DNA of 41,269 nt from Bacteroidales bacterium. Its GTDB lineage: Bacteria > Bacteroidota > Bacteroidia > Bacteroidales > UBA932. The DNA is taken from contig JAGAKR010000002.1 of assembly GCA_017625535.1 (NCBI GenBank), positions 1 through 41,269 of the forward strand, given 5' to 3'. A program made the position numbers and the translations under genes. Position 1 is the first letter of the stretch; each line of letters opens with the position of its first letter. Below are positions 14,695 through 41,082 of the stretch, piece after piece. The notes beneath the pieces were generated by a model. The model was not told where the DNA came from. It made no database searches and worked only from the letters and a program-made list of their open reading frames with translations.

Positions 14695-14736
14695 AAAAAA
14701 ATGTTGTAATTTCGCGCGCAAAATACTTTCATTACA

Positions 14737-16665: not shown

Positions 16666-16669
16666 AGAG

Positions 16670-17989: not shown

Positions 17990-18015
17990 CAGAAACAAAT
18001 AAAAATTTAACATAT

Positions 18016-19218: not shown

Positions 19219-19247
19219 CATAACAAAAAATAGAAATAAGTAAGATG

Positions 19248-19291
19248 AATTTGACTCAAAGGGACAAGTTTTTGCCCTTTTGAGTCAAATT
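19248..19291. promoter_or_regulatory. inverted repeat upstream of the synthase-phosphorylase gene
   Basis: The left arm AATTTGACTCAAAGGG (19248-19263) pairs with CCCTTTTGAGTCAAATT (19275-19291), with one unpaired A/T. The loop is 11 bases. No U-run follows on the plus strand, so it is a weak terminator at most; an attenuator, operator or mRNA-stabilising hairpin is possible. A further TTTGAGT follows directly and could compete for pairing. Confidence 0.7.
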
Positions 19292-19317
19292 TGAGTTAAA
19301 AACGAAAACAGAAAAGA

Positions 19318-22300
19318 ATGATTGTTGAGAAAATTAACAGGCCCGATTATCTGTTTGAAGCGAGTTGGGAGGTCTGCAACAAAGTGGGTGGAATTCACAC
19401 TGTTGTGGCAACCAAGGCCCTTAATTTGAAGGAGGAGTACGGCCGGAACCACATTATGATTGGTCCGGATGTCTGTATGGACGAGGCCGGAAATCCGGAG
19501 TTCCAGGAGGACAACATCCTCTTCAGGGCGTGGAAGAAGGAGGCAGCTTCAGAGGGATTGAGAGTTAAAGTGGGAAGGTGGAATGTTCCTGGTAAGCCTA
19601 TTGCCATTCTGGTAGACTTTACCACTTTCATTTCAAGGAAGGATGAGATTTTTACAGATTTGTGGAAGAAGTTCGGACTTGATTCATTGAGCGGCCGTTG
19701 GGATTATGTGGAATCTGCTCTGTTCGGTTATGCAGCCGGTAAGGTGGTTGAGAGTTTTGTGAAATTCAATATGCAGCCTCACCACAAGGTAATTGCCCAG
19801 TTCCACGAATGGATGACAGGTGCAGGTGTGCTGTATTTGAAAAGCCGCAACAGTTCGGTTGGTACAGTGTTCACAACGCACGCTACAGTGCTTGGAAGAT
19901 GCATAGCCTGCAACAATCTGCCTTTGTATGATTCTCTGGAGTCTTACAATGCAGATGAGATGGCCGGGAGGTTCAATGTTGTTGCAAGACATTCACTTGA
20001 GAAGTATGCCGCTTTGAATGCGGATATTTTCACTACAGTGAGCAACATTACTGCTGCAGAGTGCAGACAATTTATCGGGAGGGAGGTTGACTTCATTACC
20101 CCGAATGGATTTGATGCAAGTTTTGTACCTGCTGAGAAGGATTTTGATGTGTGCAGGGGTGCTGCAAGGGAGACTTTGCTGAAGGTTGCATCTGCAATGC
20201 ACGGCGTTGAGTATGGAGATGATACTCTGCTTGTTGGCATAAGCGGCAGGTATGAGTACAAGAACAAGGGTATTGATGTGTTCCTTGATGCCCTTGGAAG
20301 AATCAGGAACAGCGGATATGCCGGCAAGAAGATATTGGCTTTCCTTATGATTCCTGCCTGGAACAAGGGGATGGACAAGGAACTGGCACTGAAGATTGCC
20401 GGTGAGGGCAACGCAGAGTACGTTACAAACTCTTCACATTATCTTGCGGAGCCTGAGTATGATGCCATTATGGGCAAGATAAGGTATTATGGCTTTGATG
20501 CTGCCAATGACAACGTGGGTGTGGTTTATGTGCCTACATATCTGAACGGCAATGACGGCATTTTTGGAGTGAAGTATTATGATCTCCTGATTGGCCTTGA
20601 CCTTACCGTATTCCCTTCTTATTATGAGCCTTGGGGCTATACACCTCTTGAGTCACTTGCATTCAAGGTTCCTACAGTTACAACTTCACTTGCCGGATTC
20701 GGCGTTTGGGTTAGGGATTACTACAGTGGCAACCACCCTGGAATTGAGATTATTGAGAGAAATGATGCAAATTATGATGCTGTGGTTGGCAAGGTTATGG
20801 AGAGGATTGTAGGGGTGGCAGCGCTTGAAGAGCGTGACCTGAACAATTATAGAAACAATGCACAGGAGGTTTCCGGCATTGCACTTTGGAAAAACAATGT
20901 TAAGTATTATAAAGAGGCATACGCCGCTGCACTACGTAAGGTTGTGGAGAGGAACGGTGCTTTCCCATTAGTAAAAGAATCTGAACAAATGACATTTCAT
21001 AAATTTAAAGTGAATTCTCCAGAGTGGAGGACACTTCTTATCAATAAGGATCTTCCTGCAAAATTGAAACACCTTGATACCATCTCAAAGAACTTGTGGT
21101 GGTGCTGGAACCAGGATGCAATTGAACTCTTCAAGATGGTGGATGAGGAGTTGTGGCAGCTGGCAAACGGCAACCCTATTGCAATGCTTGATATGGTTGA
21201 CCTGAAGAGATACAAGGAACTTGCAACTGATGCCGCATTCCTTGCAAAACTTGAGGTAGTGTACCGCAATTTCAAGAAGTATATGGAGAGCAAGTCAAAA
21301 TCCAACACCCCACAGATCTCTTATTTCTGTATGGAGTATGGTCTTGACACTTCACTGAAGATCTATTCAGGCGGTTTGGGTATCCTTGCAGGTGACTACC
21401 TTAAAGAGGCAAGTGATATGAATGTGAATATGAATGCTGTTGGATTCCTTTACAAATACGGTTATTTTACACAGCAGTTGTCTTCACAGGGTGACCAGGT
21501 GGCAACTTATGATCCACAGGATTTCACAAAGACCCCTGCAACTCCTGTAATGGATGAGAACAACAACTGGGTTACAATTTCAGTTGCATTCCCTGGCAGA
21601 AACATTTATGCAAGGGTTTGGAAAGTGGCTGTAGGTAGAATTGACCTTTACCTTCTGGATTCTGACATTGAGCAGAACCTTCCGGAGGACAGGGCAGTTA
21701 CCCACCAGCTGTATGGCGGTGACTGGGAGAACCGCTTGAAACAGGAGCTTCTTCTTGGTATTGGAGGTATCAGGGCTTTGAGGGCTCTTGGCATCAATTC
21801 AGAGGTTTACCACTGCAATGAGGGCCACGCTGCATTCATCGGCCTTGAGAGATTGAGGGAGTATGTACAGAATGATGGTCTTTCATTCTCAGAGGCACTT
21901 GAGGTTGTAAGGGCTTCTTCACTTTATACAACTCATACTCCAGTGGCAGCAGGTCACGATGCATTCTCAGAGGATATGTTGAGGACCTATATTTCACATT
22001 ACCCTGGCAGATTGAACATAGACTGGCCTACACTTATGTCTTTGGGCAAGATAGATCCATACAACCTTGGCGAGAAGTTCTCTATGAGTAATCTTGCAGC
22101 CAACTTGAGCCAGGAGGTTAACGGTGTAAGCTGGCTGCACGGTAAAGTGAGCCAGGATATCCTTGGCAATTTGTGGCCAGGTTATCTTCCTGAGGAACTT
22201 CACGTAGGTTATGTTACAAATGGTGTACACTATCCAACCTGGACAGCACCGGAGTGGAAAGAGGTTCACGCAGAGGTATTTGGCGAGGAGTTCAAGACTC

Positions 22301-23553
22301 ACCACTATGACAAGAGCTGCTTCAACGGCATAAGGAAAGTGAGCGATGACAAGATATGGAGCATAAGGACTGCATTGAAATCTAAACTTATTGCAAAGGT
22401 TAAGGAGGTGATTTCAAACCCTTCTGCAGCAAACCACTACTCTCCTGCACAGATTGTGAAGATTAAGGAGACTTTGAGGGATGATATCCTTACAATTGGT
22501 TTTGCAAGACGTTTTGCAACCTACAAGAGGGCACACCTGTTGTTCAGGAACCTTGACAGACTCAACGAGATTGTAAACAATCCTGAGCATCCTGTACAGT
22601 TCCTGTTTGCAGGTAAGGCACACCCTGCAGACAAACCTGGCCAGGATCTGATCAAACATATTGTAGAGGTTTCAAAGATGCCTCAGTTCATTGGAAAGAT
22701 TGTATTTGTTCCTAACTATGACATTACAATTGCCAAACATCTTGTACAGGGTGTTGATATCTGGATGAATACCCCTACAAGACCTCTTGAGGCTTCAGGT
22801 ACTTCAGGTGAGAAGGCTGTAATGAACGGTGTAATGCACTTCTCTGTTCTTGACGGATGGTGGGTTGAAGGTTACAAGGAAGGTGCAGGCTGGATGCTTC
22901 CTATGGAGAGATCGTATGACAACCAGGGCTTCCAGGATGAGTTGGATGCTGCAACAATCTACAACATCATTGAGGGTGAGATTGCTCCGTTGTATTACGA
23001 CAAGAATGCCAAAGGCATTTCTCCTCTATGGATTGAGACCATCAAGAACTGTGTGGCAAACGTTGCATGCAACTTCACCACAAACAGGATGATGGAGGAT
23101 TATTTAAGACAGTATTATCTCCCTCTTGCAAAGAGAAGTTCAAAACTTGTTGCAAAAGAGTATGCAGTAGCAAAAGAGATTGCTGAGTGGAAGAAGAAGA
23201 TGAGGAGGGAGTGGCCTATGATTGAGGTGCTTTCATCTTCAAATGTAGGAAATATGTCTGGTGCATTGCTCCTCAACAACGAGTACAAGGCAGAGATGAC
23301 CCTTTCAGTTGGAGAGGCAGACCCTCAGGATATTGGTATTGAGGTAGTTCTTGCACAGCCTAACAAGAAAGGCAAACTTTGCATCAAGGATATCTTTGAG
23401 TACAAGTTGAAGGAGAGCAAGGATGGTGTTGCAACCTACAAGTGCAAGATTGTTCCCGACAAGACCGGTGCTTACCAGATTGCAGTAAGAATGTTTGCAA
23501 AGAATAAACAACTTCCACACAGACAGGATTTTGAGTTGGTAAGATGGTTGTAG
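19318..23553 (+). CDS. fused glycogen synthase (GT3) and alpha-glucan phosphorylase (GT35)
   Basis: This 1411-residue protein joins two opposing enzymes. Residues 1 to about 557 form a GT3, eukaryote-type glycogen synthase. It starts with FEASWEVCNKVGGIHTVV and carries GRYEYKNKGIDVF and FPSYYEPWGYTPLESLA. Residues 558-1411 form an alpha-glucan phosphorylase with the N-terminal DUF3417 region (LKHLDTISKNLWWCWNQDA), GGLGILAGDYLKEASD, and the PLP-binding lysine K1166 in GTSGEKAVMNG. Each half has the size of the stand-alone protein. A Met at residue 558 (ATG at 20989) sits exactly where a free phosphorylase would begin, so the fusion may have come from loss of a stop codon, and a separate phosphorylase could still be made. 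The end overlaps ribF by 10 bases. Confidence 0.95.
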   Translation: MIVEKINRPDYLFEASWEVCNKVGGIHTVVATKALNLKEEYGRNHIMIGPDVCMDEAGNPEFQEDNILFRAWKKEAASEGLRVKVGRWNVPGKPIAILVDFTTFISRKDEIFTDLWKKFGLDSLSGRWDYVESALFGYAAGKVVESFVKFNMQPHHKVIAQFHEWMTGAGVLYLKSRNSSVGTVFTTHATVLGRCIACNNLPLYDSLESYNADEMAGRFNVVARHSLEKYAALNADIFTTVSNITAAECRQFIGREVDFITPNGFDASFVPAEKDFDVCRGAARETLLKVASAMHGVEYGDDTLLVGISGRYEYKNKGIDVFLDALGRIRNSGYAGKKILAFLMIPAWNKGMDKELALKIAGEGNAEYVTNSSHYLAEPEYDAIMGKIRYYGFDAANDNVGVVYVPTYLNGNDGIFGVKYYDLLIGLDLTVFPSYYEPWGYTPLESLAFKVPTVTTSLAGFGVWVRDYYSGNHPGIEIIERNDANYDAVVGKVMERIVGVAALEERDLNNYRNNAQEVSGIALWKNNVKYYKEAYAAALRKVVERNGAFPLVKESEQMTFHKFKVNSPEWRTLLINKDLPAKLKHLDTISKNLWWCWNQDAIELFKMVDEELWQLANGNPIAMLDMVDLKRYKELATDAAFLAKLEVVYRNFKKYMESKSKSNTPQISYFCMEYGLDTSLKIYSGGLGILAGDYLKEASDMNVNMNAVGFLYKYGYFTQQLSSQGDQVATYDPQDFTKTPATPVMDENNNWVTISVAFPGRNIYARVWKVAVGRIDLYLLDSDIEQNLPEDRAVTHQLYGGDWENRLKQELLLGIGGIRALRALGINSEVYHCNEGHAAFIGLERLREYVQNDGLSFSEALEVVRASSLYTTHTPVAAGHDAFSEDMLRTYISHYPGRLNIDWPTLMSLGKIDPYNLGEKFSMSNLAANLSQEVNGVSWLHGKVSQDILGNLWPGYLPEELHVGYVTNGVHYPTWTAPEWKEVHAEVFGEEFKTHHYDKSCFNGIRKVSDDKIWSIRTALKSKLIAKVKEVISNPSAANHYSPAQIVKIKETLRDDILTIGFARRFATYKRAHLLFRNLDRLNEIVNNPEHPVQFLFAGKAHPADKPGQDLIKHIVEVSKMPQFIGKIVFVPNYDITIAKHLVQGVDIWMNTPTRPLEASGTSGEKAVMNGVMHFSVLDGWWVEGYKEGAGWMLPMERSYDNQGFQDELDAATIYNIIEGEIAPLYYDKNAKGISPLWIETIKNCVANVACNFTTNRMMEDYLRQYYLPLAKRSSKLVAKEYAVAKEIAEWKKKMRREWPMIEVLSSSNVGNMSGALLLNNEYKAEMTLSVGEADPQDIGIEVVLAQPNKKGKLCIKDIFEYKLKESKDGVATYKCKIVPDKTGAYQIAVRMFAKNKQLPHRQDFELVRWL

Positions 23554-25916: not shown

Positions 25917-27071
25917 ATGAAAAGAATTTTTCTATTGGGTTTGGCCGCTCTTATGGCTGTTTCATGTTCCAAAAGCAATACAGCGGTCATTGATGCCCAA
26001 ATTGACGGGGCAGATGCAAAACAGATTCTTGTTACCAAATTGTCTGTAAACCAGTTGAGGTTTGTGGATACATTAAGGACAGACAGCAAAGGTGCCGTTA
26101 CAGGCAAGATTGAACTTACAGAGGAAACCCCTAACTTCTACTATCTTTCATATAACGGAAGACGCCTTGTTTCACTTGTTCTGAAACCTGGTGACAAAGT
26201 TAAGGTTACAGCAGATACACTTGGAAGGAATGTGACTGTTGAGGGCTCACAGGAGTCTGTGCTTATGCAGAAATATGATATGGACCTTGCTGCGGCAGTA
26301 TCAAAGTTTGAGTCCCTTTCATCGCAACTCGGCAAGGCTATGGAGGCTAAGGATGCCAAGGCCGAGGCGCAACTCAATGCAGAGTTGAGCAAGCTGTATG
26401 TCAAGCACAAACAGAACACAATAAAGAGCATTATGCAGAATCCGTATGCACTTGCAAACGTACAGGCACTTTACCAGTCAATTATGCCTGGCCTTCCTGT
26501 ATTCGGCGGAGAGAATGACCACTTCATCTTCCAGAGGGTGCATGATTCATTGGCAACACTCTATCCGGAGTCTGTTTATGTGAAATCATTGCAGGAGCAG
26601 ATAAAGGCTGCAGAGGATTTGAAACTTCTTGCAGGAAGGATTGAGAATGCAGAGGAGAAATCATTCCCCAACATTTCTCTTCCCGACGTAAATGCAAAGA
26701 ATGTGGAACTTGCATCCCTTGAGGGCAGACCTTTCATCCTTATGTTCTGGGCAGTTGCAGACCCTAACCAGAAGATGTTCAACAATGAACTTAAAGAGGT
26801 TTACAATAAATACAAAGGACAGGGGCTTGAGATTTATCAGGTGGCTGTTGATACAGACAAGACAGCTTGGGCTACAGCCGTTAAGGAGCAGGAACTCCCT
26901 TGGATAAGTGTATGTGACGGAAAGGGTGCCGCATCAATTGCAGTGGCAAGTTACAATGTTACAGCCATCCCTTCAATTTTTGTTTTTGACAGGAACGGTG
27001 ACATTGTTGCAAGCAAGAACCTCTTCTCAAAAGAGAATATTGAGGCCGCTGTGCGCAAGGCAATAAAATAG
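25917..27071 (+). CDS. DUF4369 / thioredoxin-fold lipoprotein without CXXC
   Basis: This 384-residue protein has a lipoprotein signal peptide with lipobox AVSC (Cys17), so it should be membrane-anchored. An N-terminal DUF4369 domain (about residues 20-110) is followed by a helical middle region. A C-terminal AhpC/TlpA-type thioredoxin domain (about 250-384) ends the protein. The usual WxxCxxC motif reads WAVADPNQ, so both redox cysteines are missing. The cis-Pro loop AIPSIFVFD is kept. It is therefore unlikely to be a disulfide reductase and may have a binding or structural role. It ends at a strong terminator. Confidence 0.9.
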   Translation: MKRIFLLGLAALMAVSCSKSNTAVIDAQIDGADAKQILVTKLSVNQLRFVDTLRTDSKGAVTGKIELTEETPNFYYLSYNGRRLVSLVLKPGDKVKVTADTLGRNVTVEGSQESVLMQKYDMDLAAAVSKFESLSSQLGKAMEAKDAKAEAQLNAELSKLYVKHKQNTIKSIMQNPYALANVQALYQSIMPGLPVFGGENDHFIFQRVHDSLATLYPESVYVKSLQEQIKAAEDLKLLAGRIENAEEKSFPNISLPDVNAKNVELASLEGRPFILMFWAVADPNQKMFNNELKEVYNKYKGQGLEIYQVAVDTDKTAWATAVKEQELPWISVCDGKGAASIAVASYNVTAIPSIFVFDRNGDIVASKNLFSKENIEAAVRKAIK

Positions 27072-27146: not shown

Positions 27147-27845
27147 CTACAGAAGCTTCTTTGGCTTGCCGGCAATGAAATCCTTAAGGTAAAAAGGCTC
27201 AAAATAGGCATTGTCCTCAAATTCTCCGGCCTGCAGTTTGCGGGTGGCAATAACACGCATTCCAGAGGCGTGGGGCTCTTGTGGGGCAAAGAAGGCATTG
27301 GGATTGCCTCCTACAAGTTCCTTGAACTTTTCTGCACCGTTGCCGGTAAAAAGTACAGGACCGGCAGCCAGTTCTGCTGCATAACTGTTTTCATCAAGTA
27401 TTTTTGCCTCAACAGGGGTAAGCTGCTCCCCGGCAGAGTTGAAATTGGCAGTGTAAACCTCCATCCTCCTGGCATCAATCATCGGGATAATGGTATATTC
27501 CCCCTCTTTCCCGTACAGGTTGTTGTCCATTGCCATTTGTGCAATTGTAGCAAGTGTACATACTGATATCAAAGGCTTACCGGCCCCGTAGCACAACCCT
27601 TTGGCACAGGAGACTCCAACCCTGAGGCCTGTGTATGAACCGGGTCCTTTGCTCACGGCAACTGCACTGCATTCTGCCATAGTTATGCCGTTCTCTTCCA
27701 ATATGTCACTTATATATCTGGCCAGCAGTGATGCGTGGGCTTTTGGCTGGTTTATGTATTTTTCTGCTACAATATTCCCGTTGTCTGCCAATGCAACCGA
27801 GCAGGAGTCAGTGGCAGTTTCAAGTAAAAGTATATAGTTCTTCAT
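27147..27845 (-). CDS. tsaB: tRNA threonylcarbamoyladenosine biosynthesis protein TsaB
   Basis: This 232-residue ASKHA-fold protein is the TsaD partner in making N6-threonylcarbamoyladenosine at position 37 of ANN-decoding tRNAs. Motifs include LLLETATDSCSVALAD at the N-terminus, AHASLL, and AVSKGPGSYTGLRVGVSCAKGL around residue 70. The gene is the last of the tolC-adaptor-tsaB run. It starts one base after the adaptor stop, so it is co-transcribed with a transporter to which it has no evident functional link. Confidence 0.95.
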   Translation of the reverse strand: MKNYILLLETATDSCSVALADNGNIVAEKYINQPKAHASLLARYISDILEENGITMAECSAVAVSKGPGSYTGLRVGVSCAKGLCYGAGKPLISVCTLATIAQMAMDNNLYGKEGEYTIIPMIDARRMEVYTANFNSAGEQLTPVEAKILDENSYAAELAAGPVLFTGNGAEKFKELVGGNPNAFFAPQEPHASGMRVIATRKLQAGEFEDNAYFEPFYLKDFIAGKPKKLL

Positions 27846-27846
27846 C

Positions 27847-29082
27847 TCATTTGTTTTCTTCAGCAGTAACAGCCGAACCGTTTGACAACTCTTTGCTTAT
27901 GGCACTGTAAGGTGCAACCACAATCCGGCAATCGGGGTTGAGCCCCCCAGTAATCTCAATATTTGTCATATCCTGGATTCCTGTCTCCACACAAGCCACA
28001 TCTACGGTACCGCTCTGCGGGTTGTATACAAACACCTGCTGCAGCACGCCGTCATAGGTGGAGAGAGAGTCAACCAGCCCCTTGCGGGTAGTGATTGCCT
28101 GCAGTGGAACCATAAGCACTCCATCCTTCTTCTGTGTCTGTATTGAAACAGATGCACTCATTCCAGGCCTGAACGGTATGGAGCTCTTTTCAAGCAGATC
28201 TTTGTAGGATTCAGCAAGTACAAGAACCTTTACCTCAAAATTTGTAACCTGGTCTGCTGTGGCTGTTCCGGAATTCTTGGAAGAGTTGGCCACCTGGGTA
28301 ACCACCCCCTTGAACTTCCTTCCAGGATATGCATCAATCTCTATTGTGGCTGTATCTTTAGTTGAGAGGCGGATGATGTCTATCTCGTTCACATCCACCA
28401 GTACCTCCATCTGGCTCAGGTCTGCTATGCGGAGCATCTCTGTTCCCGCCATCTGGGTTGTACCTACAACGCGCTCTCCAATCTCCACACTCAATTTGGA
28501 GATGGTGCCGCTCATAGGGGCATATATGTTTGTCTTAACAAGATTCTCCTCAGCCTCCTTGAGCGAAGCCTGTGCACTCTTTACATTATACTCTGCCGCT
28601 TTCAGCTGGCTCTTGGCCATCTGGTATTCTGCCAGCGACTTCTCATAGTCTGCTTGCGGGATTGTCTTTTTGCTGAAAAGCAGTTCATTCCTGTTGTGGG
28701 CAAGTTCTGTCTGCTTCATCTGTGCCTCCTGCTGCATATACTGTGATTTTACCGCATTCAGCGAAGCCTCGGCCCTGTCCCTTGCAGAGAGATATACATC
28801 CTGCTTTATCTGCAGGATAAGGTCCCCTTTCTGTACAATGTCACCCTCCTGGAAATTAAGTTTTACAATCTCGCCGGAGACATCGGGACTTATCTTCACT
28901 TCAGTTACAGGCTGTATCTTTCCGTTTGCAGGAATGGATTCCACAATTGAACCGGTTTGTGGAGCCTGCAATGTAACCCTTATCCCTTTTCCTCCATTGT
29001 TCTTCCCGATAAAAATAAGTAGGACAATTACGGCAACCGCCGCAATGAGGATGAATCTTCTGTTGTTTTTAGTTTTTCCCAT
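27847..29082 (-). CDS. periplasmic adaptor (membrane fusion) protein, MacA/RND type
   Basis: This 411-residue membrane fusion protein has an N-terminal membrane anchor (residues about 8-25). A biotinyl-lipoyl-like half motif (VSGEIVKLNFQEGDIVQKGDLI) comes next, followed by a long alpha-hairpin coiled coil (about 95-190) and the second lipoyl half (APMSGTISKLSVEIGERV). Beta-barrel and membrane-proximal domains complete it. Such proteins join an inner-membrane pump to TolC. Here it follows tolC by 9 bases. No MacB-type permease or RND pump gene is beside it; the nearest pump is the peptidase-ABC exporter upstream, which makes that exporter a candidate partner. Confidence 0.92.
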   Translation of the reverse strand: MGKTKNNRRFILIAAVAVIVLLIFIGKNNGGKGIRVTLQAPQTGSIVESIPANGKIQPVTEVKISPDVSGEIVKLNFQEGDIVQKGDLILQIKQDVYLSARDRAEASLNAVKSQYMQQEAQMKQTELAHNRNELLFSKKTIPQADYEKSLAEYQMAKSQLKAAEYNVKSAQASLKEAEENLVKTNIYAPMSGTISKLSVEIGERVVGTTQMAGTEMLRIADLSQMEVLVDVNEIDIIRLSTKDTATIEIDAYPGRKFKGVVTQVANSSKNSGTATADQVTNFEVKVLVLAESYKDLLEKSSIPFRPGMSASVSIQTQKKDGVLMVPLQAITTRKGLVDSLSTYDGVLQQVFVYNPQSGTVDVACVETGIQDMTNIEITGGLNPDCRIVVAPYSAISKELSNGSAVTAEENK

Positions 29083-29091
29083 AATCCAGTG

Positions 29092-30414
29092 TTACAATGT
29101 AATTGGGGTGTTTTTGTAATAATCCAGCACCTTCAGCTGGAAGATGTACTGGAACTTGCTCTGCAGATATTCAGACTCTGCCTTGAAAAGGTTTGTCTTG
29201 GCCACAGTATAGTCTGTTCCTCCAAGCATACCCACATTGAACTTTTCCTGTGTATACTTGAAAGACTCCTTTGCCGCCTCCATATTCTGTTTTGCCGCGC
29301 CAAGTCTCTCAAAACTTGCAAGGGCATCGTTGTATGCCTGCTGTATATCTTTAAGCAGATTCTGGTGCTGCAGTTTCAGTTCAATCTCTGAATTCTTCAC
29401 GTTCAGCCTCGCATTCCTTATTGATGTGTTGCTCCTCCAGTTGTTGAAGATAGGGATGCTTAACCCAAACCCCATAGATGGGTTGCGGTTGTTGTTGAAC
29501 TGCTCAAAAAATGCGCTGCTCTGGTTGTCGCTGTAGTATGTGCCGTATCCGGCATTGAACGAGATAGAGGGCAATGCCGCCCCTTTCTGTATCTTGTACT
29601 GCAGTTTGCTCTGTTCAAGTGCAAGTTCAGCCCCCTTTATTCGGGGAAGTCCTGTTGCATTGCCATATATCTCCTCCACACTTTCGGGGTTGAATGATAA
29701 TGTGAGGTAATCTGTCTGTGGTGTCTCTATGTCGAACTTTCCAAAATCCTCAATGTCCAGCAGCTGGGCCAGCGCAAGAAGGCTGCTCCTTACATTGTTG
29801 CCTGCAGTTACTGCCTGTACTTTCTCACTGGCAAGCTGGGCCTGTATCTCCAACAGAGAACTGTATGCCTGGCTCCCGGCCTCCACAAGCTGGCGGCTTC
29901 TGGCCTCCTGCTCCTGCACGCTTGCAAGACTTGCCTGTGCACTCTTCTCAATCTCCTTATTCAGCAGCACCTGCAGATATGCCTGGGCTACGGTGAGTGA
30001 TATCTCATCCTGCAGTTTCTCCACATTCACCCCAGCAATCTCCAGCTGCTTAAGATTGCGCTTTACCGTATTGCGTTTCTGCATCCCCTCAAAAAGGGGA
30101 ACAGAAGCTGAGATGTTCATTGATGTGCTCTGTGACAGCTTGTTCTCAATTATCTCCAGATCATTGAGGTTTACCGAACGTCCCCAGCTCATATTGTGGT
30201 TCATTGAGGCATTTACAGAGGGAAGGTACTCCATCTTGGATGAAAACAGGTTGTTCTCTGCCTGTTCAATGGCAATCTGCTGTTGCTTTACCTGCAGGTT
30301 GTTTTCTCTGGCGTGCCTGATGCATCCTTCCAGAGACCATTTGTGTTGTGTATACGCATTGCCGCACAATACAAGTGCAAGCATAAGGGCCGGTATTTTT
30401 ATAAAGTTCATCAT
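29092..30414 (-). CDS. TolC family outer-membrane efflux protein
   Basis: This 440-residue outer-membrane channel protein has a signal peptide (ALMLALVLCGNAYTQ) and two repeats of the OEP fold, each with long periplasmic helices. The first begins WSLEGCIRHARENNLQVKQQQ, and YTQEKFNVGMLGGTDY lies near the C-terminus. It forms the exit duct of a tripartite export system. Its product is expected to work with the adaptor encoded directly downstream. The gene lies 108 bases after the second double-glycine peptide gene, with a hairpin and a -7 promoter element in the gap. Confidence 0.94.
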   Translation of the reverse strand: MMNFIKIPALMLALVLCGNAYTQHKWSLEGCIRHARENNLQVKQQQIAIEQAENNLFSSKMEYLPSVNASMNHNMSWGRSVNLNDLEIIENKLSQSTSMNISASVPLFEGMQKRNTVKRNLKQLEIAGVNVEKLQDEISLTVAQAYLQVLLNKEIEKSAQASLASVQEQEARSRQLVEAGSQAYSSLLEIQAQLASEKVQAVTAGNNVRSSLLALAQLLDIEDFGKFDIETPQTDYLTLSFNPESVEEIYGNATGLPRIKGAELALEQSKLQYKIQKGAALPSISFNAGYGTYYSDNQSSAFFEQFNNNRNPSMGFGLSIPIFNNWRSNTSIRNARLNVKNSEIELKLQHQNLLKDIQQAYNDALASFERLGAAKQNMEAAKESFKYTQEKFNVGMLGGTDYTVAKTNLFKAESEYLQSKFQYIFQLKVLDYYKNTPITL

Positions 30415-30522: not shown

Positions 30523-30693
30523 CTACAATGTTGCAGGTGCAGAGAACATTTTGCGGAATTTGTTTGCCATATATATCATTTTGGCAATTGTGCCTATGCA
30601 CTCTGCTATGAAAGCCACAAGTTGTGCTGTCTCCTTGTTCCTGCCGCCATATACGGCACACGCTTCGGACATATCCATCTCATATATTCCCAT
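30523..30693 (-). CDS. double-glycine-leader peptide B (bacteriocin-like precursor)
   Basis: This 56-residue precursor is shorter than the usual gene-finding cutoff. The 17-residue leader is MGIYEMDMSEACAVYGG. Counting back from the cleavage site it has GG at -2/-1, V at -4, A at -7, E at -8 and M at -12, the positions recognised by C39 peptidases. The predicted 39-residue core begins RNKETAQ. It has one Cys (core position 15), a helix-prone hydrophobic middle and a net charge of about +4. The start is strongly supported: AAAGGAGG lies 5 bases ahead of the ATG, directly at the stop of peptide gene A, with 11 bases between the two genes. No modification enzyme is adjacent. Activity (bacteriocin, signal or other) is inference. 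Confidence 0.75.
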   Translation of the reverse strand: MGIYEMDMSEACAVYGGRNKETAQLVAFIAECIGTIAKMIYMANKFRKMFSAPATL

Positions 30694-30704
30694 AACAGCC
30701 TCCT

Positions 30705-30890
30705 TTAAAAATTGTTCCAGCCGCGTTTGAACCCGTCTACAATATCCTTATGGTATTCCATAAGGAAATCAAAGGCTTCCTTTATGCAGCCCCAGAAATT
30801 CTCAAAACAGGCAACGGATACCCCTCCCCTTACAAATTGGAGTTCCCCGATGCCGGCACATACAAAACCTTCATTTTCCAATTTTTTCAT
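30705..30890 (-). CDS. double-glycine-leader peptide A (bacteriocin-like precursor)
   Basis: This 61-residue precursor has a 23-residue leader ending in ELQFVRGG: GG at -2/-1, V at -4, L at -7 and E at -8, a textbook C39-peptidase leader. The predicted 38-residue core begins VSVACFENFWGC. It has two Cys (core positions 5 and 12), is rich in aromatic residues and has a net charge of about -2. The start is the ATG at 30890; the frame can be read from a TTG three codons earlier, but the ATG gives the usual MKKLEN start. It lies 60 bases after the exporter gene and 11 bases before peptide gene B, on the same strand. Its function is inferred only from the leader and the neighbouring exporter. Confidence 0.82.
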   Translation of the reverse strand: MKKLENEGFVCAGIGELQFVRGGVSVACFENFWGCIKEAFDFLMEYHKDIVDGFKRGWNNF

Positions 30891-30950
30891 AATCTTCAAA
30901 TTTTTAAGCCCTACCGATAAGTGCTGCGTAGGTTACCACTTTGAGCATGC

Positions 30951-33044
30951 TCATTTTATTGTAACAACGTTGTCTGCAATTGAAATTCCGGCCTCCTTGT
31001 GTGAGATGAACAGGATTGTTTTCCCAGCATCCCTCAACTTCTGCAAAGTGTCCAGCACACATTTTTCACTCAACTTGTCCAATGAAGATGTGGCCTCATC
31101 AAGAATATATATTTGAGGATTCTTGTACAGGGCCCGGGCAATGGCAATTTTCTGGCATTCTCCTCCCGACAGTCCTTCCCCTTTTTCACCTGTATGGGTG
31201 AGGAGTCCCTGGGGGAACCTCCGTATCATCCCCTCCATCCCCAGGGAGAGACATATCCCAAGCACCCTCTCCATATCGGCATTATCATCGCCAAGGGTGA
31301 TGTTATCCAGTATTGAGGCATTGAACAGATGTATCCTCTGCGGTACATATCCTATCTTATCCCTCCACTGCTGCAGATTGAACTGGGCAATGTTCACCCC
31401 TCCGCAGCAGATCATCCCTTTGAGGGGAAGATGTTCCCTGAGGATAAGTTTTGCAATGGTGCTCTTCCCGCATCCGCTCTCCCCCTTTATAAGGGTGATT
31501 TTCCCTTGCGGTACGGAAAAGGTGAGATCTTCCAGCAGGGTTTCCCTTCCCGGGAAACGGAATCCCACAGAATCCACCGTCAGGCTCCCCTCAACACCAT
31601 CTGTCGGGAGTCCTTTACCCTGGGTGGCATCACTGGGAAGATCCATAATCTCAAAGATCCTACCACAGGATACGGTTGTTCTGGCAATGGTCTCCCCGGT
31701 GCTTATGAGGTTGCCCAATGGTACTGTAAGGAAGGTGCAGAGGCTGTAGAACCCAACCAGTTCCCCAATGCTCATCTCCCCTTTGAGCACTGCGGCAGAC
31801 CCTATGGTAAGGATTATGCACACAAGAGATTTTGATACCCCTTGGGAAAGGGTTTCAAATAGGTTGATGGTATTGGCGCAGGAGTGGAGCCTTCCCATAA
31901 GGGAAACCAGACTCTTTTCCAGCCTCCCTATGGACATCTTCCCGGCCCCGTAATGCCTTATCTCTCCAATGCCGGATATGGTATCAAGCACATCAGATTC
32001 AAAAGCGGCGTTTGCGGAGGCAATCTCCTTGCTGTACCTGCGGCTTATCCTTCCGCTCAGCAGGTAAAGTCCGCAATACAGCGGGGTGAACAGTGCAATG
32101 TAGAGGGTGAGCCTTGGATTGTACAGAAGCATTGCCAGAAGGGCCCCAACAATGGTAATTATGCTGGTGAGTATCCCTATGGCACCTTCTGTTACAAAGG
32201 TGCGGATATTCCGTATGTCATCTGTTCTGGATGTTATGTCACCTGCACGGTAATTGTTGAAGAACTCCTGCGGAAGGGAGATTATCTTCTCAAGGTAGCC
32301 GCAAAGGAGAGATGTCTCCATCTTAAGGCTGCATCTGATAAGGTAGCCTGCTGTTGCCCAACCTATATAAAGGGTAAATGCTGTAAGTATAACCACCAGC
32401 AATCCAAGAATGGCCATTGCGGTGTGGTCTCCTTTGGGAACCACATCATCTATAAGTTGCTGCAGCAGGAATGTTATGCTTATCCCTGTAAAGGTGCAGG
32501 TGGCGGAACCGGCAAAAGAGAGGGCAATCTCCCGGTAGAAAGAAGTGAATAAAGCAAGCAAGTGTTGTGATATGGGAGCAGACTTGCCCTCTCCGGTTCC
32601 GGAAACCGTATCCGGTTCAATTGTAATTATATAGCCTGTCCATTGTGAGACAAATTTTTCTATGGATATCTTCTCCATTTTGCCACTTGCAGGGTCCATT
32701 ATCTGCATTGTATCCCCTTTGGTGCAGTACACTACAATAAAGTGGTAATATCCGTCTGAATCTGTGATGTGGGCTATGAAAGGTGCCTCCAGACATTTGA
32801 GCGGAGTTGTCTCCTTCTCCTTTGAACGGTATCCTCTGGCCTTGAAACCGGCTTTGGCTGCACCGTCAATCAACCCCTGTATGGATATCCCCTCCGGGGT
32901 ACATCCGCAGGCCATCCTTATCCCGGCAAGTGAAACCTTTACCCCATAGAAGGCGGCAATTGAGGCAAGGCAGGCAGCCCCGCAGTCATATTTGTAGTGC
33001 TGGCGTATTTCCAGCGGCTTTCTATGTAACATCTGTGCAATCAT
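30951..33044 (-). CDS. C39 peptidase-containing ABC exporter (PCAT) for double-glycine peptides
   Basis: This 697-residue protein cleaves double-glycine leaders and exports the core peptide. The N-terminal C39 peptidase domain (about residues 10-150) has the full catalytic set: C21 in QHYKYDCGAACLAS, H101 in GYYHFIVV and D117 in IMDPASG. A six-helix ABC membrane domain (about 170-440) follows. The nucleotide-binding domain has Walker A GESGCGKST, signature LSGGE and Walker B YILDEATSSLD. The start is the ATG at 33044: it overlaps the stop of the upstream 52-residue membrane protein as ATGA. A second ATG at 33032 is possible. The open frame to 33149 begins with GTG and adds residues foreign to the family. 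Two matching precursor genes lie directly downstream. Confidence 0.95.
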   Translation of the reverse strand: MIAQMLHRKPLEIRQHYKYDCGAACLASIAAFYGVKVSLAGIRMACGCTPEGISIQGLIDGAAKAGFKARGYRSKEKETTPLKCLEAPFIAHITDSDGYYHFIVVYCTKGDTMQIMDPASGKMEKISIEKFVSQWTGYIITIEPDTVSGTGEGKSAPISQHLLALFTSFYREIALSFAGSATCTFTGISITFLLQQLIDDVVPKGDHTAMAILGLLVVILTAFTLYIGWATAGYLIRCSLKMETSLLCGYLEKIISLPQEFFNNYRAGDITSRTDDIRNIRTFVTEGAIGILTSIITIVGALLAMLLYNPRLTLYIALFTPLYCGLYLLSGRISRRYSKEIASANAAFESDVLDTISGIGEIRHYGAGKMSIGRLEKSLVSLMGRLHSCANTINLFETLSQGVSKSLVCIILTIGSAAVLKGEMSIGELVGFYSLCTFLTVPLGNLISTGETIARTTVSCGRIFEIMDLPSDATQGKGLPTDGVEGSLTVDSVGFRFPGRETLLEDLTFSVPQGKITLIKGESGCGKSTIAKLILREHLPLKGMICCGGVNIAQFNLQQWRDKIGYVPQRIHLFNASILDNITLGDDNADMERVLGICLSLGMEGMIRRFPQGLLTHTGEKGEGLSGGECQKIAIARALYKNPQIYILDEATSSLDKLSEKCVLDTLQKLRDAGKTILFISHKEAGISIADNVVTIK

Positions 33045-33199
33045 AACATCAATGAATTGAAGAAAAACGATATGAGACAGAAGATGATTGCCGCTGCTAT
33101 AGAGACAATGAAAATGGCATCCCTCTTCTTGTGGGGGAGAAGAATCCACTGTGGGGATTCTTTAAGGTGCTGCAATGTGGAAATGCGGTGTTGTGGCAT
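33041..33199 (-). CDS. 52-residue single-pass membrane protein before the exporter
   Basis: I know no family for this. The protein has a basic, His-containing N-terminal half (MPQHRISTLQHLKESPQW) and one hydrophobic C-terminal segment (about residues 27-49). It is predicted to sit in the inner membrane with the N-terminus inside. The stop codon overlaps the exporter start as ATGA, strong evidence that it is a translated gene in the exporter operon. Small membrane proteins in such loci are often immunity or accessory proteins. It could also be a remnant of an adaptor N-terminus. The frame can be read upstream to a TTG at 33235, but the ATG at 33199 is preferred. Confidence 0.65.
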   Translation of the reverse strand: MPQHRISTLQHLKESPQWILLPHKKRDAIFIVSIAAAIIFCLISFFFNSLML

Positions 33200-33280: not shown

Positions 33281-33781
33281 TTAAGAAAAAATCTTCTCTA
33301 AAAAAGGAAAAAAATTGCGGTGGAAATGCTCCAGAAAGGCATATCCCTTTGAACCGTCCAATATCCCCTGTGGAATTATATTGAACATATTGTTCAGATG
33401 ATTTATAAGATAAACTGCCACACTCAGGATTATTGTGGCCTTCAGGGCCCCGAAAAGGAAACCCAAAAGACGGTTGAGCCAACCGAGCAGGCTCAGTTTT
33501 ATTATCCCCTCTATCCCTTTTCCTATAAAGTGCGCCAGAATCATTACAATGATGAATATTACAACAAACATTATTATGTGCAGGGTGTTCTGGGCAATGG
33601 AGAGTGAAAGGAGTTCCTTTGCCTGGGCGGAGAGATATGCGGTGAACTTGAATGCACACCATATTCCAAGCAGAAGGGCGGCTATGCTCACTATTTGCCT
33701 TACAAACCCTTTGAAGATTCCCCATACCGCTGAGGCTGCTATAATTACAAGAATTATGATGTCCAATGCTCCTATATCCAT
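33281..33781 (-). CDS. CvpA family membrane protein
   Basis: This 166-residue protein has four predicted membrane segments. The family start is MDIGALDIIILVIIAASAVWGIFKGFVRQ, and there is a GW-NRLLGFLFGALKATI segment in the middle. CvpA was named for colicin V production in E. coli but is a general membrane protein of uncertain function, so its place ahead of a peptide exporter is not proof of a link. The start is the ATG at 33781; the longer frame uses a TTG inside the promoter. It has a consensus promoter overlapping that of the divergent ileS, and lies 81 bases before the 52-residue protein gene. Confidence 0.9.
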   Translation of the reverse strand: MDIGALDIIILVIIAASAVWGIFKGFVRQIVSIAALLLGIWCAFKFTAYLSAQAKELLSLSIAQNTLHIIMFVVIFIIVMILAHFIGKGIEGIIKLSLLGWLNRLLGFLFGALKATIILSVAVYLINHLNNMFNIIPQGILDGSKGYAFLEHFHRNFFPFLEKIFS

Positions 33782-33795
33782 CTGTAGGTAATTTT

Positions 33796-33826
33796 TTTTC
33801 AAAAATAGGTATTTATCTTATCTTTG
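33796..33826 (+). promoter_or_regulatory. ileS promoter (-7 TATCTTTG)
   Basis: TATCTTTG (33819-33826) matches TAnnTTTG, with a T-rich -33 region 18-19 bases upstream. The ileS ATG is 33 bases downstream. It overlaps the cvpA promoter face to face. Confidence 0.65.
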
Positions 33827-33830
33827 CAAA
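33800..33830 (-). promoter_or_regulatory. cvpA promoter (TTTG-N19-TATTTTTG)
   Basis: On the minus strand TTTG (33830-33827) and TATTTTTG (33807-33800) are spaced by 19 bases, an exact match to the Bacteroidota primary promoter consensus. Its -33 box is adjacent to the -7 box of the ileS promoter on the other strand. Confidence 0.7.
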
Positions 33831-38399: not shown

Positions 38400-38891
38400 T
38401 CATTTCTTTATTTTTTCCATCAATTTCTGTCGGGAAAAATGTATCCTGCTCTTTACAGTACCAAGGTGGAGGCCAAGTTCATCCGCTATTTCCTGGTATT
38501 TGTATCCGCTGTCGTGCATCTGGAATGGAATCCTGAATTCAGGCTCCAGTGAATTTACCATTGCGGTAAGTTCGCGGAAGTTGTAGTCGCTCTCGGGACT
38601 TGTCTGTGCAGGTCTGCTTGTTATTACAAATTCCTGTACATCTTTATTGAAAATTGCCTGTTTCTTTACCCTACGTCTGTAGTCGTTTATGAAGGTATTT
38701 TTCATAATTGTGTACATCCAGGCCTTGATGTTTGTCTGCTCATCAAATTTGTCCTGGTTATAGAAAGCCTTGAAATAAGTTTCTTGAACCAAATCTTTAG
38801 CATCATCCATATTTGAGGTGAGGCTGTAAGCGTACCTTGTAAGGCTTGGTTCCAGGTTAATAATCTCGTTATGGAATTTTGAATCAGCCAT
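38400..38891 (-). CDS. ECF-type RNA polymerase sigma factor
   Basis: This 163-residue sigma-70 family protein has region 2 (residues about 15-80: LTRYAYSLTSNMDDAKDLVQETYFKAF and AWMYTIMKNTFINDYRR) and region 4 (about 105-160: LEPEFRIPFQMHDSGYKYQEIADELGLHLGTVKSRIHFSR). No anti-sigma gene lies next to it, so its control is not evident here. The start is the ATG at 38891; the longer frame begins with TTG. It is divergent from the response regulator gene, with a 223-base gap that holds dyads and direct repeats. Confidence 0.93.
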   Translation of the reverse strand: MADSKFHNEIINLEPSLTRYAYSLTSNMDDAKDLVQETYFKAFYNQDKFDEQTNIKAWMYTIMKNTFINDYRRRVKKQAIFNKDVQEFVITSRPAQTSPESDYNFRELTAMVNSLEPEFRIPFQMHDSGYKYQEIADELGLHLGTVKSRIHFSRQKLMEKIKK

Positions 38892-38921
38892 AATAGTTAA
38901 GATTATCTGATTAACCAATTT

Positions 38922-38940
38922 CAGTAAAAAAGGTTTACTG
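38922..38940. promoter_or_regulatory. dyad upstream of the sigma factor gene
   Basis: CAGTAAA and TTTACTG form a perfect 7-bp inverted repeat with a 5-base spacer, 31 bases upstream of the sigma factor ATG. A second dyad, GTTAA-N10-TTAAC (38896-38915), lies between it and the gene. These are candidate operators; no protein can be assigned. Confidence 0.4.
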
Positions 38941-39055
38941 ACCTGTCCTAGTTTTAAAGAGGTTTTGTCTCTCTGGCTTCCGTTTGCGAAATTAGGAAGT
39001 TGTTTTTTTACAATAATTAACGGGTGGTGTATTTATTGTTAAGTTTCGGTGACTT

Positions 39056-39077
39056 TTTCAGAATTGTTTCAGAATTA
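39056..39077 (+). promoter_or_regulatory. tandem 11-bp repeat, candidate response-regulator site
   Basis: TTTCAGAATTG is followed immediately by TTTCAGAATTA. Direct repeats at 11-base spacing are the usual binding layout of OmpR/PhoB-type regulators. They lie just upstream of a near-consensus -7 box (TTTCTTTG, about 39083-39090) and 38 bases before the response regulator ATG, so autoregulation is likely. Confidence 0.5.
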
Positions 39078-39114
39078 TGTATTTTCTTTGTAATGGAAAA
39101 TGTAACGGAAACTT

Positions 39115-39789
39115 ATGAAGATTCTTATTGTAGAGGATGAGCCTCAGTTGCAGGAGGTTATACGCCGTACCCTTGAGAAGGAGCGTTATGTGGTGGAGAG
39201 TGCAGGGAGCCTTGCGGAGGCACTTGAGAAGACTGGAGTATATGATTATGAGTGCATATTGCTGGACATTATGCTTCCCGATGGAAGCGGGCTCACCCTG
39301 CTTGAAGAGTTGAAGAAGTTGAGGAAAAAGGAGAATGTGATAATAATTTCTGCCAAGGATTCAATAGAGGACAAGATTGCGGGGCTTGATCTGGGGGCAG
39401 ATGATTACCTTGCCAAACCTTTCCACATTGCGGAACTTGTAGCCAGGGTAAGGAGTGTCATACGCCGCAGGCATAGGGATGGGGAGAATACAATCCAGGT
39501 AGGGAATGTGCTCCTTTATCCCGACAACTTCAAGGTTGAGGTGGCAGGTTCACCTGTTGAACTCAGCCGGAAGGAGTATGACATTCTCCATTATTTCCTG
39601 AACAGGCCGGGGAGGCTTGTAAACAAGAGCACCCTTGCTGAATCTGTATGGGGAGACCATATAGACCAGGTTGATAATTATGATTTTATGTATGCGCAGA
39701 TGAAGAATCTGAGGAAGAAGCTTTCAGATGCCGGTGCTGATATAGAGATAAAGGCCGTATATGGGGCCGGATATAAACTTGTAGAGTAA
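39115..39789 (+). CDS. OmpR-family response regulator
   Basis: This 224-residue regulator has an N-terminal receiver domain (residues 1-120) with the acidic pocket E7-D8, phospho-acceptor D51 (LLDIMLP) and the conserved Lys in LAKPF. A C-terminal winged-helix DNA-binding domain carries ELSRKEYDILHYFLNRPGRLV and ends VYGAGYKL. The cognate kinase follows after 12 bases. The signal and regulon are not evident. A tandem 11-bp repeat before the promoter suggests it controls its own operon. Confidence 0.96.
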   Translation: MKILIVEDEPQLQEVIRRTLEKERYVVESAGSLAEALEKTGVYDYECILLDIMLPDGSGLTLLEELKKLRKKENVIIISAKDSIEDKIAGLDLGADDYLAKPFHIAELVARVRSVIRRRHRDGENTIQVGNVLLYPDNFKVEVAGSPVELSRKEYDILHYFLNRPGRLVNKSTLAESVWGDHIDQVDNYDFMYAQMKNLRKKLSDAGADIEIKAVYGAGYKLVE

Positions 39790-39801
39790 ATTATCGGGAA
39801 G

Positions 39802-41082
39802 ATGAAACTTTCTTACAGGGTATTTTCCAGATTGTCCGTTGGGGTTGTGGCTGTCCTTTCCATTTGGGCGGTGTGCTTTTATTTTGCCATTATGGATGAG
39901 GTTACAGATGAGGTGGATGATTCCCTTGAGGATTATTCAGAGATGATAATAAGGCGCTCCCTTGCCGGGGAGACTCTCCCTTCAAATGACAGCGGGTCCA
40001 ATAACCAGTATTTTATAAAGGAGGTTACACCGCAGTGGGCAATGGGAAGGCCTGCTGTTGAGTACAAGGATTCGATGGTTTATATTGTTGCAAAAAATGA
40101 GACTGAGCCTGCAAGGATATATACTACCATATTTATGGATAAGGAGGGGCGGTATTTTCAGTTGGAGGTTTCTGTACCTACAATAGAGAAGGCTGATTTG
40201 AGGGAGTCTATAGTTTATCTTATTGTGGGGCTTTATGTGGTGCTTCTGCTTGCTTTCATGCTTATAAATTATTTTGTGTTCAGGAGGTCGATGAAGCCTT
40301 TTTATGCCATTCTGGATTGGCTGGATGCCACCAGACCTGGAAGCGGTTCCGGCGGGCCTGCGGTGGATACGGACACAACGGAGTTCCGCAAACTTGGGGA
40401 GGCCCTTGCCAGGTATTCAAATCATAGCGAAGAGTTGTTCAAACAGCAGAAACAGTTCATTGGGGATGCTTCTCACGAGGTGCAGACTCCTGTGGCCATA
40501 TGCATAAACCGCATAGAGATGCTTATGGAAGATGAATCCGTAACGCAGAAACAGATGGAGGAACTGCAGAAAGTGCACAAGACTCTTGGGTATGTTTCAA
40601 GGCTCAACAAATCACTGCTGTTGCTTACAAAAATTGACAACAACCAGTTCTGCGATGTGGAGGATGTGGATATGAATGCCATTCTCAGGAATGTTGCCGA
40701 GGATTATACGGAGGTGTATGCGTATAAGGAGGTTTCTCTGGCATTGGAGGAGAATGGTGTGTTTGATGTGAGGATCAACAGGACACTTGCGGGGATCCTT
40801 GCTGCAAATCTTGTAAAGAATGCCTTTGTCCATAATGTGCAGGGGGGCAGGGTGCAGATCAGTTGCTCTTCAGACAAAATAGAGTTCTGCAATACTGCTT
40901 ACGGTGAGGCTCTGGATTCTGCTTGTGTCTTTGAACGGTTCTGGCAGGGAAGCCGCAAAGAGGGTTCTGCTGGCCTTGGCCTTGCCATTGCCCAGGCAAT
41001 CTGCAGACACTTCAACCTCTCCCTGGAATACAAATACAACAAAGGGATGCACTGCTTTACCATCAGCAGACAGATTTCATAA
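39802..41082 (+). CDS. sensor histidine kinase paired with the response regulator
   Basis: This 426-residue membrane kinase has two membrane segments (about residues 10-30 and 136-157) around an extracytoplasmic domain of about 105 residues. The DHp domain has H225 in GDASHEVQTPVA. The catalytic domain has the N box NLVKNAFVHN and a C-terminal GLGLAIAQAI. The G1 box is weak: the usual DxGxG region reads FCNTAYGEAL, which is common in small Bacteroidetes kinases of this group. No clear HAMP domain is seen. It is 12 bases downstream of its response regulator and is the last gene in the window. Confidence 0.94.
   Translation: MKLSYRVFSRLSVGVVAVLSIWAVCFYFAIMDEVTDEVDDSLEDYSEMIIRRSLAGETLPSNDSGSNNQYFIKEVTPQWAMGRPAVEYKDSMVYIVAKNETEPARIYTTIFMDKEGRYFQLEVSVPTIEKADLRESIVYLIVGLYVVLLLAFMLINYFVFRRSMKPFYAILDWLDATRPGSGSGGPAVDTDTTEFRKLGEALARYSNHSEELFKQQKQFIGDASHEVQTPVAICINRIEMLMEDESVTQKQMEELQKVHKTLGYVSRLNKSLLLLTKIDNNQFCDVEDVDMNAILRNVAEDYTEVYAYKEVSLALEENGVFDVRINRTLAGILAANLVKNAFVHNVQGGRVQISCSSDKIEFCNTAYGEALDSACVFERFWQGSRKEGSAGLGLAIAQAICRHFNLSLEYKYNKGMHCFTISRQIS

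Follow-up and report, generated by a model that had tools for sequence, protein, structure and literature searches.

A vertically inherited locus of one Bacteroidales family predicted to mature and export a class IIb-like peptide pair

Introduction

Positions 30,523 to 33,199 of contig JAGAKR010000002.1 (assembly GCA_017625535.1), from a Bacteroidales bacterium (GTDB lineage Bacteria; Bacteroidota; Bacteroidia; Bacteroidales; UBA932), raise the question of what two short, adjacent peptide genes are doing beside a peptidase-containing exporter. This locus lies within positions 1 to 41,269 of the contig, a stretch of 41,269 nucleotides that was analyzed as a whole and is called the window here. 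An earlier note, made from the sequence of the window, described an ATP-binding cassette (ABC) exporter with a C39 peptidase domain followed on the same strand by two genes whose leaders end in a double glycine (GG), and proposed that the two products act together as in two-peptide bacteriocins or serve as two signals. All of these elements are indeed present, on the minus strand. Two-peptide bacteriocins are mainly found in Gram-positive bacteria, in accessory and strain-variable clusters.

The explanation that we favor, with belief and doubt about evenly balanced, is that the locus encodes an obligate pair of helical, class IIb-like peptides that is exported and kept as a core trait. Specifically, the C39-ABC exporter would cut both leaders after the GG, and the freed cores, called A and B, would be pumped out through a MacA-like adaptor and a TolC channel. 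A and B would then pair through GxxxG faces, as in class IIb two-peptide bacteriocins, and act together at the membrane of a target cell. The pair would most likely be antibacterial.

Both peptide genes accompany the exporter

The exporter gene (30951..33044, minus strand; ATG at 33044, stop at 30951) encodes 697 amino acids carrying the Pfam domains C39, ABC_membrane and ABC_tran. Its peptidase domain (Peptidase_C39, E 5.6e-31) has the catalytic residues C21, H101 and D117 at the positions reported earlier, together with Q15, and its best relative of solved structure, 4ry2, an 'ABC-type bacteriocin transporter', aligns over residues 2-695. PepA (30705..30890, minus strand) consists of a 23-residue leader, with E at -8, L at -7, V at -4 and a terminal GG, and a 38-residue core of charge -2 with GFKRG near its C-terminus. 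PepB (30523..30693, minus strand) follows after 11 nucleotides; its 17-residue leader has E at -8, A at -7 and V at -4 before the GG, and its 39-residue core, of charge +4, has AECIG at mid-core. The leader features, core lengths and charges given in the earlier note are therefore confirmed for the window.

We compared the window with 75 related loci, giving a set of 76 exporter loci (the window plus 34, 36 and 5) from 11 genera of one family. At E <=1e-60 the exporter was found in 45 of 61 genomes searched and in 35 of 37 in the window's genus (window included). Forty loci were fetched around exporter matches: 34 hold the operon, each with two small GG open reading frames (ORFs) after the exporter, five hold C39 exporters of other kinds, and L063 comes from outside the family. 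With a PepB profile, 37 of 39 members of the genus show a single copy, and 201 of 398 genomes of the family match at a loose E of 1, or 126 genomes at E <=1e-3. Exporter, A and B are present in all 36 family PepB matches that were fetched, 34 of them in other genera. Among 25 genomes examined that have no clear PepB match, the housekeeping gene tsaB, which marks the end of the site in the window, was found in 24; of the 20 TsaB loci fetched from these, five contain the operon and 15 lack it in the stretch fetched.

The earlier note asked whether homologous exporters occur without the small ORFs and whether these ORFs are selected for coding. In 76 of 76 loci both peptide genes follow the exporter, in the order A then B, spaced by -16 to +20 nucleotides with one exception of 48 (median 9). 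Among the 40 closest of 73 pairs, the ratio of nonsynonymous to synonymous substitution rates (dN/dS) for A is at most 0.43 in 38 and 0.56 and 0.76 in the remaining two, which have few changes, whereas for B it is at most 0.29 in the 36 pairs that give a value; exporter and TsaB fall in a similar range (0.04-0.29). Invariable presence after the exporter and purifying selection in most close pairs indicate that the ORFs are more than chance. The catalytic C is present in 75 of the 76 exporters (there is a gap in L076), and H and D are present in all. Strict patterns for Walker A, LSGG[EQ] and Walker B match 75, 56 and 37 exporters, respectively; these patterns are narrow and nothing is drawn from them.

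The window's genome (2.18 Mb, 31 contigs, 88.6% complete) holds a single exporter of this kind, as the other 21 exporter matches begin at query residue 282 or later and none covers the C39 part. Two properties of the window peptides do not extend to the system as a whole. Opposite charge, with A acidic and B basic, occurs in only 11 of 76 pairs, and the two cysteines needed for the disulfide that the earlier note thought possible in A are present in 3 of 76 A cores, the window's among them, and in 0 of 76 B cores. The expectation of conserved leaders and variable cores is borne out weakly at best: mean column entropy is slightly lower over the last 15 leader positions than over the core (2.19 versus 2.52 bits for A, 2.12 versus 2.53 bits for B), but the cores are conserved too. 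As stated earlier, no gene of the radical S-adenosylmethionine (SAM), lanthionine or cyclase families lies nearby, none being found among the 28 window proteins scanned. Judged by the gene content of the window, we infer that the peptides are unmodified.

Each core carries a GxxxG-like motif

The two most conserved columns of each core lie four positions apart. For A, G53 is invariant (76 of 76) and position 57 is G in 72 loci and A in 4; for B, position 30 is G in 59 and A in 17, and G34 is again invariant. A GxxxG-like motif is found in each peptide of all 76 loci, and strict GxxxG in 72 A and 59 B cores. Among shuffled cores, the pattern G[FYLI]xx[GA] appears in a mean of 12.3 of 76 for A (maximum 21) and [GA]xxxG in a mean of 31.9 of 76 for B (maximum 44). 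Because the 76 loci are related, these counts measure constraint and not independent origin. Amphipathicity exceeds the 95th percentile of shuffled sequences in 75% of A cores and 54% of B cores. The AlphaFold2 model of the window's PepB is one helix spanning residues 20-51 (predicted template modeling score 0.41), with a mean predicted local distance difference test score of 92 for residues 21-30 and 96 for residues 31-40.

The presence of a conserved GxxxG-like motif in each core strengthens the two-peptide reading. Together with a dedicated C39 exporter that has two substrates, it upholds the earlier proposal that the two cores belong together; these data do not separate an antibacterial pair from a pair of signals, the two roles that had been offered.

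Similar features are known from class IIb bacteriocins of the lactococcin G and enterocin 1071 type, which likewise combine an adjacent GG-leader pair, a C39-ABC exporter, cores of 35-39 residues and a GxxxG-like motif in each core. The PepA consensus dFikGFkkG resembles EFIKGFGKG of lactococcin G beta, and iGygiG of PepB resembles IGQGIG of lactococcin G alpha. In contrast to those systems, the present one resides in a genome of Gram-negative type, is inherited vertically and has no dedicated immunity gene that we could find. A study of enterocin C reports that cognate peptides contact each other mainly via GxxxG, that these motifs are essential for class IIb activity, and that BacA, a membrane phosphatase of Enterococcus faecalis, is a binding partner of both enterocin C and lactococcin G (PMC12765074).

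Homology to lactococcin G and enterocin 1071 was considered as a candidate explanation for this likeness. Profile hidden Markov models of the cores were compared with the mature peptides in eight tests of 3000 shuffles each, and seven of the eight are not significant; a low tail appears only for lactococcin G alpha against B (3 of 3000). We therefore claim a likeness of motif, not descent. The window peptides have no relevant match among the family models. Across the set, lactGbeta_entB matches 5 of 76 A members (best E 0.0012), and the lactococcin G models give one alpha match (E 0.082) and one beta match (E 0.009) to B members, all reported by E value and not by score against cut-off. A model of CTB family bacteriocins matches 5 of 76 B members (best E 0.0085), and a plasmid search for PepA gave no match. 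From sequence comparison, the system probably works like class IIb, without any claim of membership.

The operon occupies one fixed site

The exporter and peptide genes belong to a longer string on the minus strand, whose continuation into channel, adaptor and tsaB was missed by the earlier note, as was a small gene before the exporter (see below). The first gene, cvpA-like (33281..33802), encodes 173 amino acids matching Pfam Colicin_V (PF02674, E 6.9e-30). PepB is followed after 108 nucleotides by a TolC-type outer-membrane channel gene (29092..30414; 440 amino acids; Pfam OEP, E 3.6e-55; TIGR01844, E 4.6e-44 but below its cut-off). Nine nucleotides further lies the gene for a periplasmic adaptor of the MacA or resistance-nodulation-division (RND) type (27847..29082; 411 amino acids), which scores 175 bits on NCBIfam TIGR01730 (cut-off 94.9) and matches the MacA model at E 1.1e-33, below its cut-off. 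One nucleotide separates the adaptor from tsaB (27147..27845; TIGR03725, 171 bits, cut-off 69.3).

Loci without the system reveal the site that it occupies. In all four g26 loci CvpA stands directly beside TsaB, with the ends of the matches 17-41 nucleotides apart, and three further loci (L155, L169 and L170) look like the same empty site. Since CvpA stays beside TsaB where the system is missing, the cvpA-like gene is probably a housekeeping neighbor outside the peptide system. Two genomes, G010 of the window's genus (93% complete) and G435 of g212, keep CvpA, channel, adaptor and TsaB and lack exporter, A, B and the small membrane gene at the site; the whole-genome check covered exporter and PepB for G010 and PepB for G435. 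G001, the second genome of the genus in which no match was found, is uninformative because its contig stops at TsaB (base 37). Three loci, of g221, g217 and g226, have channel, adaptor and TsaB without this exporter in the stretch, the g221 locus being at a contig end, and three more (L162, L168 and L172) have other arrangements. Beside channel, adaptor and TsaB, that g221 locus (L160 of genome G444, positions 37-593) contains two other GG ORFs and a 43-residue membrane ORF at the contig end, and a third GG-like ORF further on.

Phylogenetic trees of the exporter and of TsaB require 10 and 11 label changes, respectively, for 11 genera (fast method), 10 being the minimum. In both trees no single branch sets off g28 or g208 from the rest, and in the TsaB tree this holds for g27 too. 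As judged from these sequences, the locus is a vertically inherited operon at one fixed site. The exporter changes fast here, given that it is 55% identical between the window and its nearest relative, whereas TsaB is about 85% and IleS 95% identical. Co-evolution of peptides and exporter was tried as a further argument and rejected: the partial distance correlation is 0.61 for the A core and 0.54 for the B core, but 0.60 for CvpA, and so is not specific.

The wide retention of the system and its conserved location amid housekeeping genes would also suit a physiological role in the envelope or in housekeeping, in which the peptides serve their producer and are not aimed at other cells. Against such a role, at least five gains or losses are needed on the TsaB tree (which includes 14 loci without the system), and none of the four g26 loci has the system at the site. 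These changes and empty sites indicate that the system is dispensable, and we regard a purely physiological role as distinctly improbable.

Vertical inheritance and purifying selection also speak for another alternative, that the peptides are one or two pheromone signals for the family's own communication, matured and exported by the same machine. The 27 of 76 loci in which no small membrane or immunity gene was found are consistent with this possibility. Single PepA members also match pheromone models: BlpC matches the PepA of L050 at E 4.4e-4 (residues 9-34, largely within the leader; 20 bits, where the cut-off is 70), and Pfam ComC matches one of 35 members at E 3.1e-5, a value given without matched stretch or cut-off. 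However, C39 substrates share similar leaders, paired GxxxG motifs would be unexpected in pheromones, and the unit includes no sensor gene. The nearest two-component pair of the window (39115-41082) lies beyond genes that read as ileS-, dksA- and lspA-like. Signaling is thus rather unlikely in our estimate, and we continue with an antibacterial pair as the preferred explanation.

Export components and a small membrane gene

The outer parts of the export machine are less constant than the exporter and its peptides. A channel gene lies downstream of PepB in 74 of 76 loci, within 500 nucleotides in 70 and at 716-788 nucleotides in four g225 loci; an adaptor gene follows PepB in 72 of 76, and a CvpA gene precedes the exporter in 69 of 76. 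Loci L057 and L145 of the channel and adaptor tally are at contig ends. The longer gap in the four g225 loci (L141, L142, L143 and L165) leaves room for a further gene. Across L117-L152, channel and adaptor come in two sequence grades among genera, as if outer parts had been exchanged. Similarity of the channel to that of the window is about 45-56% in g27, g28 and g225, except for L120 at 26%, and about 26-33% in g215, g218, g219 and g222. The constant module is therefore made up of exporter, A and B, which persist whichever grade of channel is present.

Immediately before the exporter lies a gene for a 52-residue protein with a single membrane helix (33041..33199, minus strand), whose stop overlaps the exporter ATG. 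Similar one-helix ORFs, mostly of 45-105 residues, occur upstream of the exporter in 49 of 76 loci; an automatic rule gave 51, from which L074 and L075 were dropped as doubtful. The ORF was not found in the other 27 loci, two of which (L057 and L069) are cut by a contig end. Its dN/dS lies between 0.00 and 0.46 in 16 of 17 pairs, the 17th (window versus L042) being saturated, and these low values mark it as a real gene under purifying selection.

An immunity protein was the first function considered for this gene. Its single membrane helix would fit, as putative transmembrane domains are described in immunity proteins of two-peptide bacteriocins (PMC6957408), and the gene is not seen in the gap between CvpA and channel in G010 and G435, where exporter and peptides are missing too. 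This reading was then lowered for two reasons: the gene was not found in the 27 loci noted above, all of which keep both peptides, and its profile points elsewhere. In a search of 5543 ORFs, a set that also contains the model's own rows, the best outside match is the N-terminus of an HlyD-type adaptor in L063 (E 9e-4, 20.5 bits), encoded 6 nucleotides before the closest exporter found outside the family, in the same place as the small gene. None of 1000 shuffles that keep the hydrophobic pattern scores as well, whereas three other adaptors, including the window's MacA-like protein, reach 7-8 bits and are equaled by 4, 17 and 27 of 1000 shuffles. Among 19 loci outside the operon set, L063 alone gives a clear match to the profile; the HlyD match is itself weak by sequence standards. 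Bacteroidetocin clusters likewise hold a membrane protein gene that is not an immunity gene (PMC6671954). We consider an immunity function doubtful, and it is more likely that the small gene helps the exporter.

With moderate doubt, we propose that the small gene may be what is left of an HlyD adaptor, its anchor, after the MacA-like protein encoded downstream took the place of the periplasmic part. The fuller scenario can be put forward only tentatively: a vertically inherited two-peptide weapon or signal would be exported by a machine in which an HlyD adaptor has shrunk to a cytoplasmic tail and membrane helix, with the MacA-like adaptor doing the periplasmic work. If so, the locus may exemplify an export machine whose adaptor is split.

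ORFs that read like the start of an HlyD adaptor are also present right after C39 exporters in L225 (5189-5383) and L077, where they are 62-65 residues long, for example RSEKVSKLTGEIPPSLVRTGIAIIVIV. In a set of 656 ORFs, the profile of the small gene gives them weak matches (E 0.068 and 2.0). Stubs of this kind may recur more widely among C39 loci of the order.

Relation to known peptide export systems

Bacteroidetocins (Coyne et al., 2019; PMC6671954) provide a comparison within Bacteroidales. They too have a GG leader, a peptidase-ABC exporter, a membrane protein gene and no immunity protein. They differ in that a single peptide, which has two or more cysteines once mature, is in most cases accompanied by a gene for a thiol oxidoreductase; the present system has two peptides, its cysteines are not conserved, and its cluster holds no thiol oxidoreductase gene, the nearby thioredoxin-like gene (see below) being convergent. 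Bacteroidetocins, lacking immunity, are also reported to inhibit their own producers. Hence a missing immunity gene does not by itself exclude a bacteriocin.

Another comparison is the Cdz system of Caulobacter, in which two small proteins with glycine zippers are reported alongside a type I exporter and a small immunity protein that spans the membrane (PMC5380434). The general layout is shared (two small peptides, type I export, GxxxG and a Gram-negative host), and it raises the possibility that A and B form a cell-surface pair that stays on the producer and kills by contact. However, the extended GxxxGxxxG zipper is almost absent here (2 of 76 A cores and 0 of 76 B cores), and mean G+A+V+I content is 31% for A and 35% for B compared to the 75% given for Cdz proteins. 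The present locus also differs in its vertical inheritance and in having no proven immunity gene. A contact-dependent surface pair therefore seems very improbable to us. Finally, the combination of C39-ABC exporter, periplasmic adaptor and TolC-type channel resembles the export route of colicin V and class II microcins, as outlined in PMC10352776; the differences are the two peptides, the MacA-like adaptor and the possible HlyD stub.

Several points weigh against an antibacterial class IIb-like pair. A peptide pair conserved throughout a genus and free of diversifying selection is not what one usually sees in bacteriocins; it would fit a signaling or physiological function. No immunity gene with several helices was seen, and a search for the small membrane gene found none in over a third of the 76 loci. 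L053 and L132 have exporter and both peptides with neither channel nor adaptor in the stretch, and in L132 TsaB directly follows PepB, such that the outer parts are not strictly tied to the module. The peptides fall in no curated class IIb family, NCBIfam matches being few, scattered and weak, and the core profiles do not detect lactococcin G or enterocin 1071 in seven of eight tests. GxxxG also arises by chance, and the 76 loci, being related, do not count as that many independent observations. Nor can co-evolution be read from the higher partial distance correlation between peptides and exporter, because CvpA behaves alike. What is said of peptide, expression and activity is a prediction from DNA sequence.

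The locus is in any case unlike a usual bacteriocin cluster, being inherited vertically in many genera of one family and having no clear immunity gene. In the literature searched, which consisted of titles and the starts of abstracts and had most subscription journals outside it, we found no description of a two-peptide, GxxxG-bearing, family-wide export locus in Bacteroidales. What appears to be new is the class IIb-like export of a peptide pair, with a predicted function, by a system that belongs to Gram-negative bacteria, is inherited vertically and uses an unusual export machine. If this reading is true, a vertical pair at a single site under purifying selection in many genera of a Gram-negative gut lineage would indicate that such peptides can become a core function. 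The 76 paired sequences offer a natural set for direct tests of how GxxxG governs pairing and of what C39 exporters accept as substrates, and the peptides are short enough for direct synthesis and testing.

Possible relatives outside the family and other features

Searches of the order with the peptide profiles return few matches. The PepB profile matches 6 of 393 genomes with alignment A2 (E 0.01) and 20 of 393 with alignment A4, and the A profile matches 27 of 393 at E <=0.1, mostly weakly. Spread outside the family on the basis of A4 was rejected, given that most outside matches lie in ORFs of about 325-360 residues and appear to be fortuitous; among solved structures, the A4 profile matches polyprenyl synthases best. 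Two small-ORF pairs are exceptions among the A4 matches outside the family.

Two GG pairs in other families resemble A and B. In L179 (1300-1635; genome G191, another family) an adjacent pair has an A-like core with GDFVAGFKAA and a B-like core with DLGYLIG, and the B-like peptide matches lactGalph_entA at E 4.4e-4, below cut-off. This pair is near a gene that reads as radical-SAM-like (L185, 4936-6174, minus strand). L184 (3251-3903; family f14) holds an A/B-like GG pair, and the A-like peptide scores 21.0 bits on the class IIb model TIGR03949, whose cut-off is 21.5. Both L184 and L228 (G266 and G049) contain a 35-residue membrane ORF with IFRNWE, resembling the A core end IFRDWENFKAG, as well as an HlyD adaptor; in L228 a C39 exporter stands beside this ORF. 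An ORF that mimics the A core in this manner could encode immunity. A different C39 locus within the window's genus (L077, 3637-6107) has a Cys-containing GG precursor of 86 residues directly before the exporter, and upstream of the precursor a gene that reads as a radical-SAM maturase.

Within the window, a promoter-like site precedes cvpA (33800..33830, minus strand). It was found by a search for the pattern TTTG-N19-TATTTTTG, which we take to reflect the Bacteroidetes-type promoter consensus, and it is weak evidence, as the window holds 2 matches with 1.0 expected. A 162-residue ORF at 24456 has no family match at E 1e-6. At the other end of the string, a thioredoxin-like gene (25917-27071) is convergent to it and is also a neighbor in loci L154, L157 and L171, which lack the system. 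An ORF of 1205 residues with a histidine kinase domain lies at 3424-7041, and at 38400-41082 a gene for a sigma factor of the extracytoplasmic function (ECF) type is divergent from a response regulator-histidine kinase pair. The plus strand from 12715 to 23553 is a block of glycogen genes encoding branching-enzyme-like, debranching, glycosyltransferase and GH57 proteins, together with a fused glycogen synthase-phosphorylase ORF of 1411 residues.

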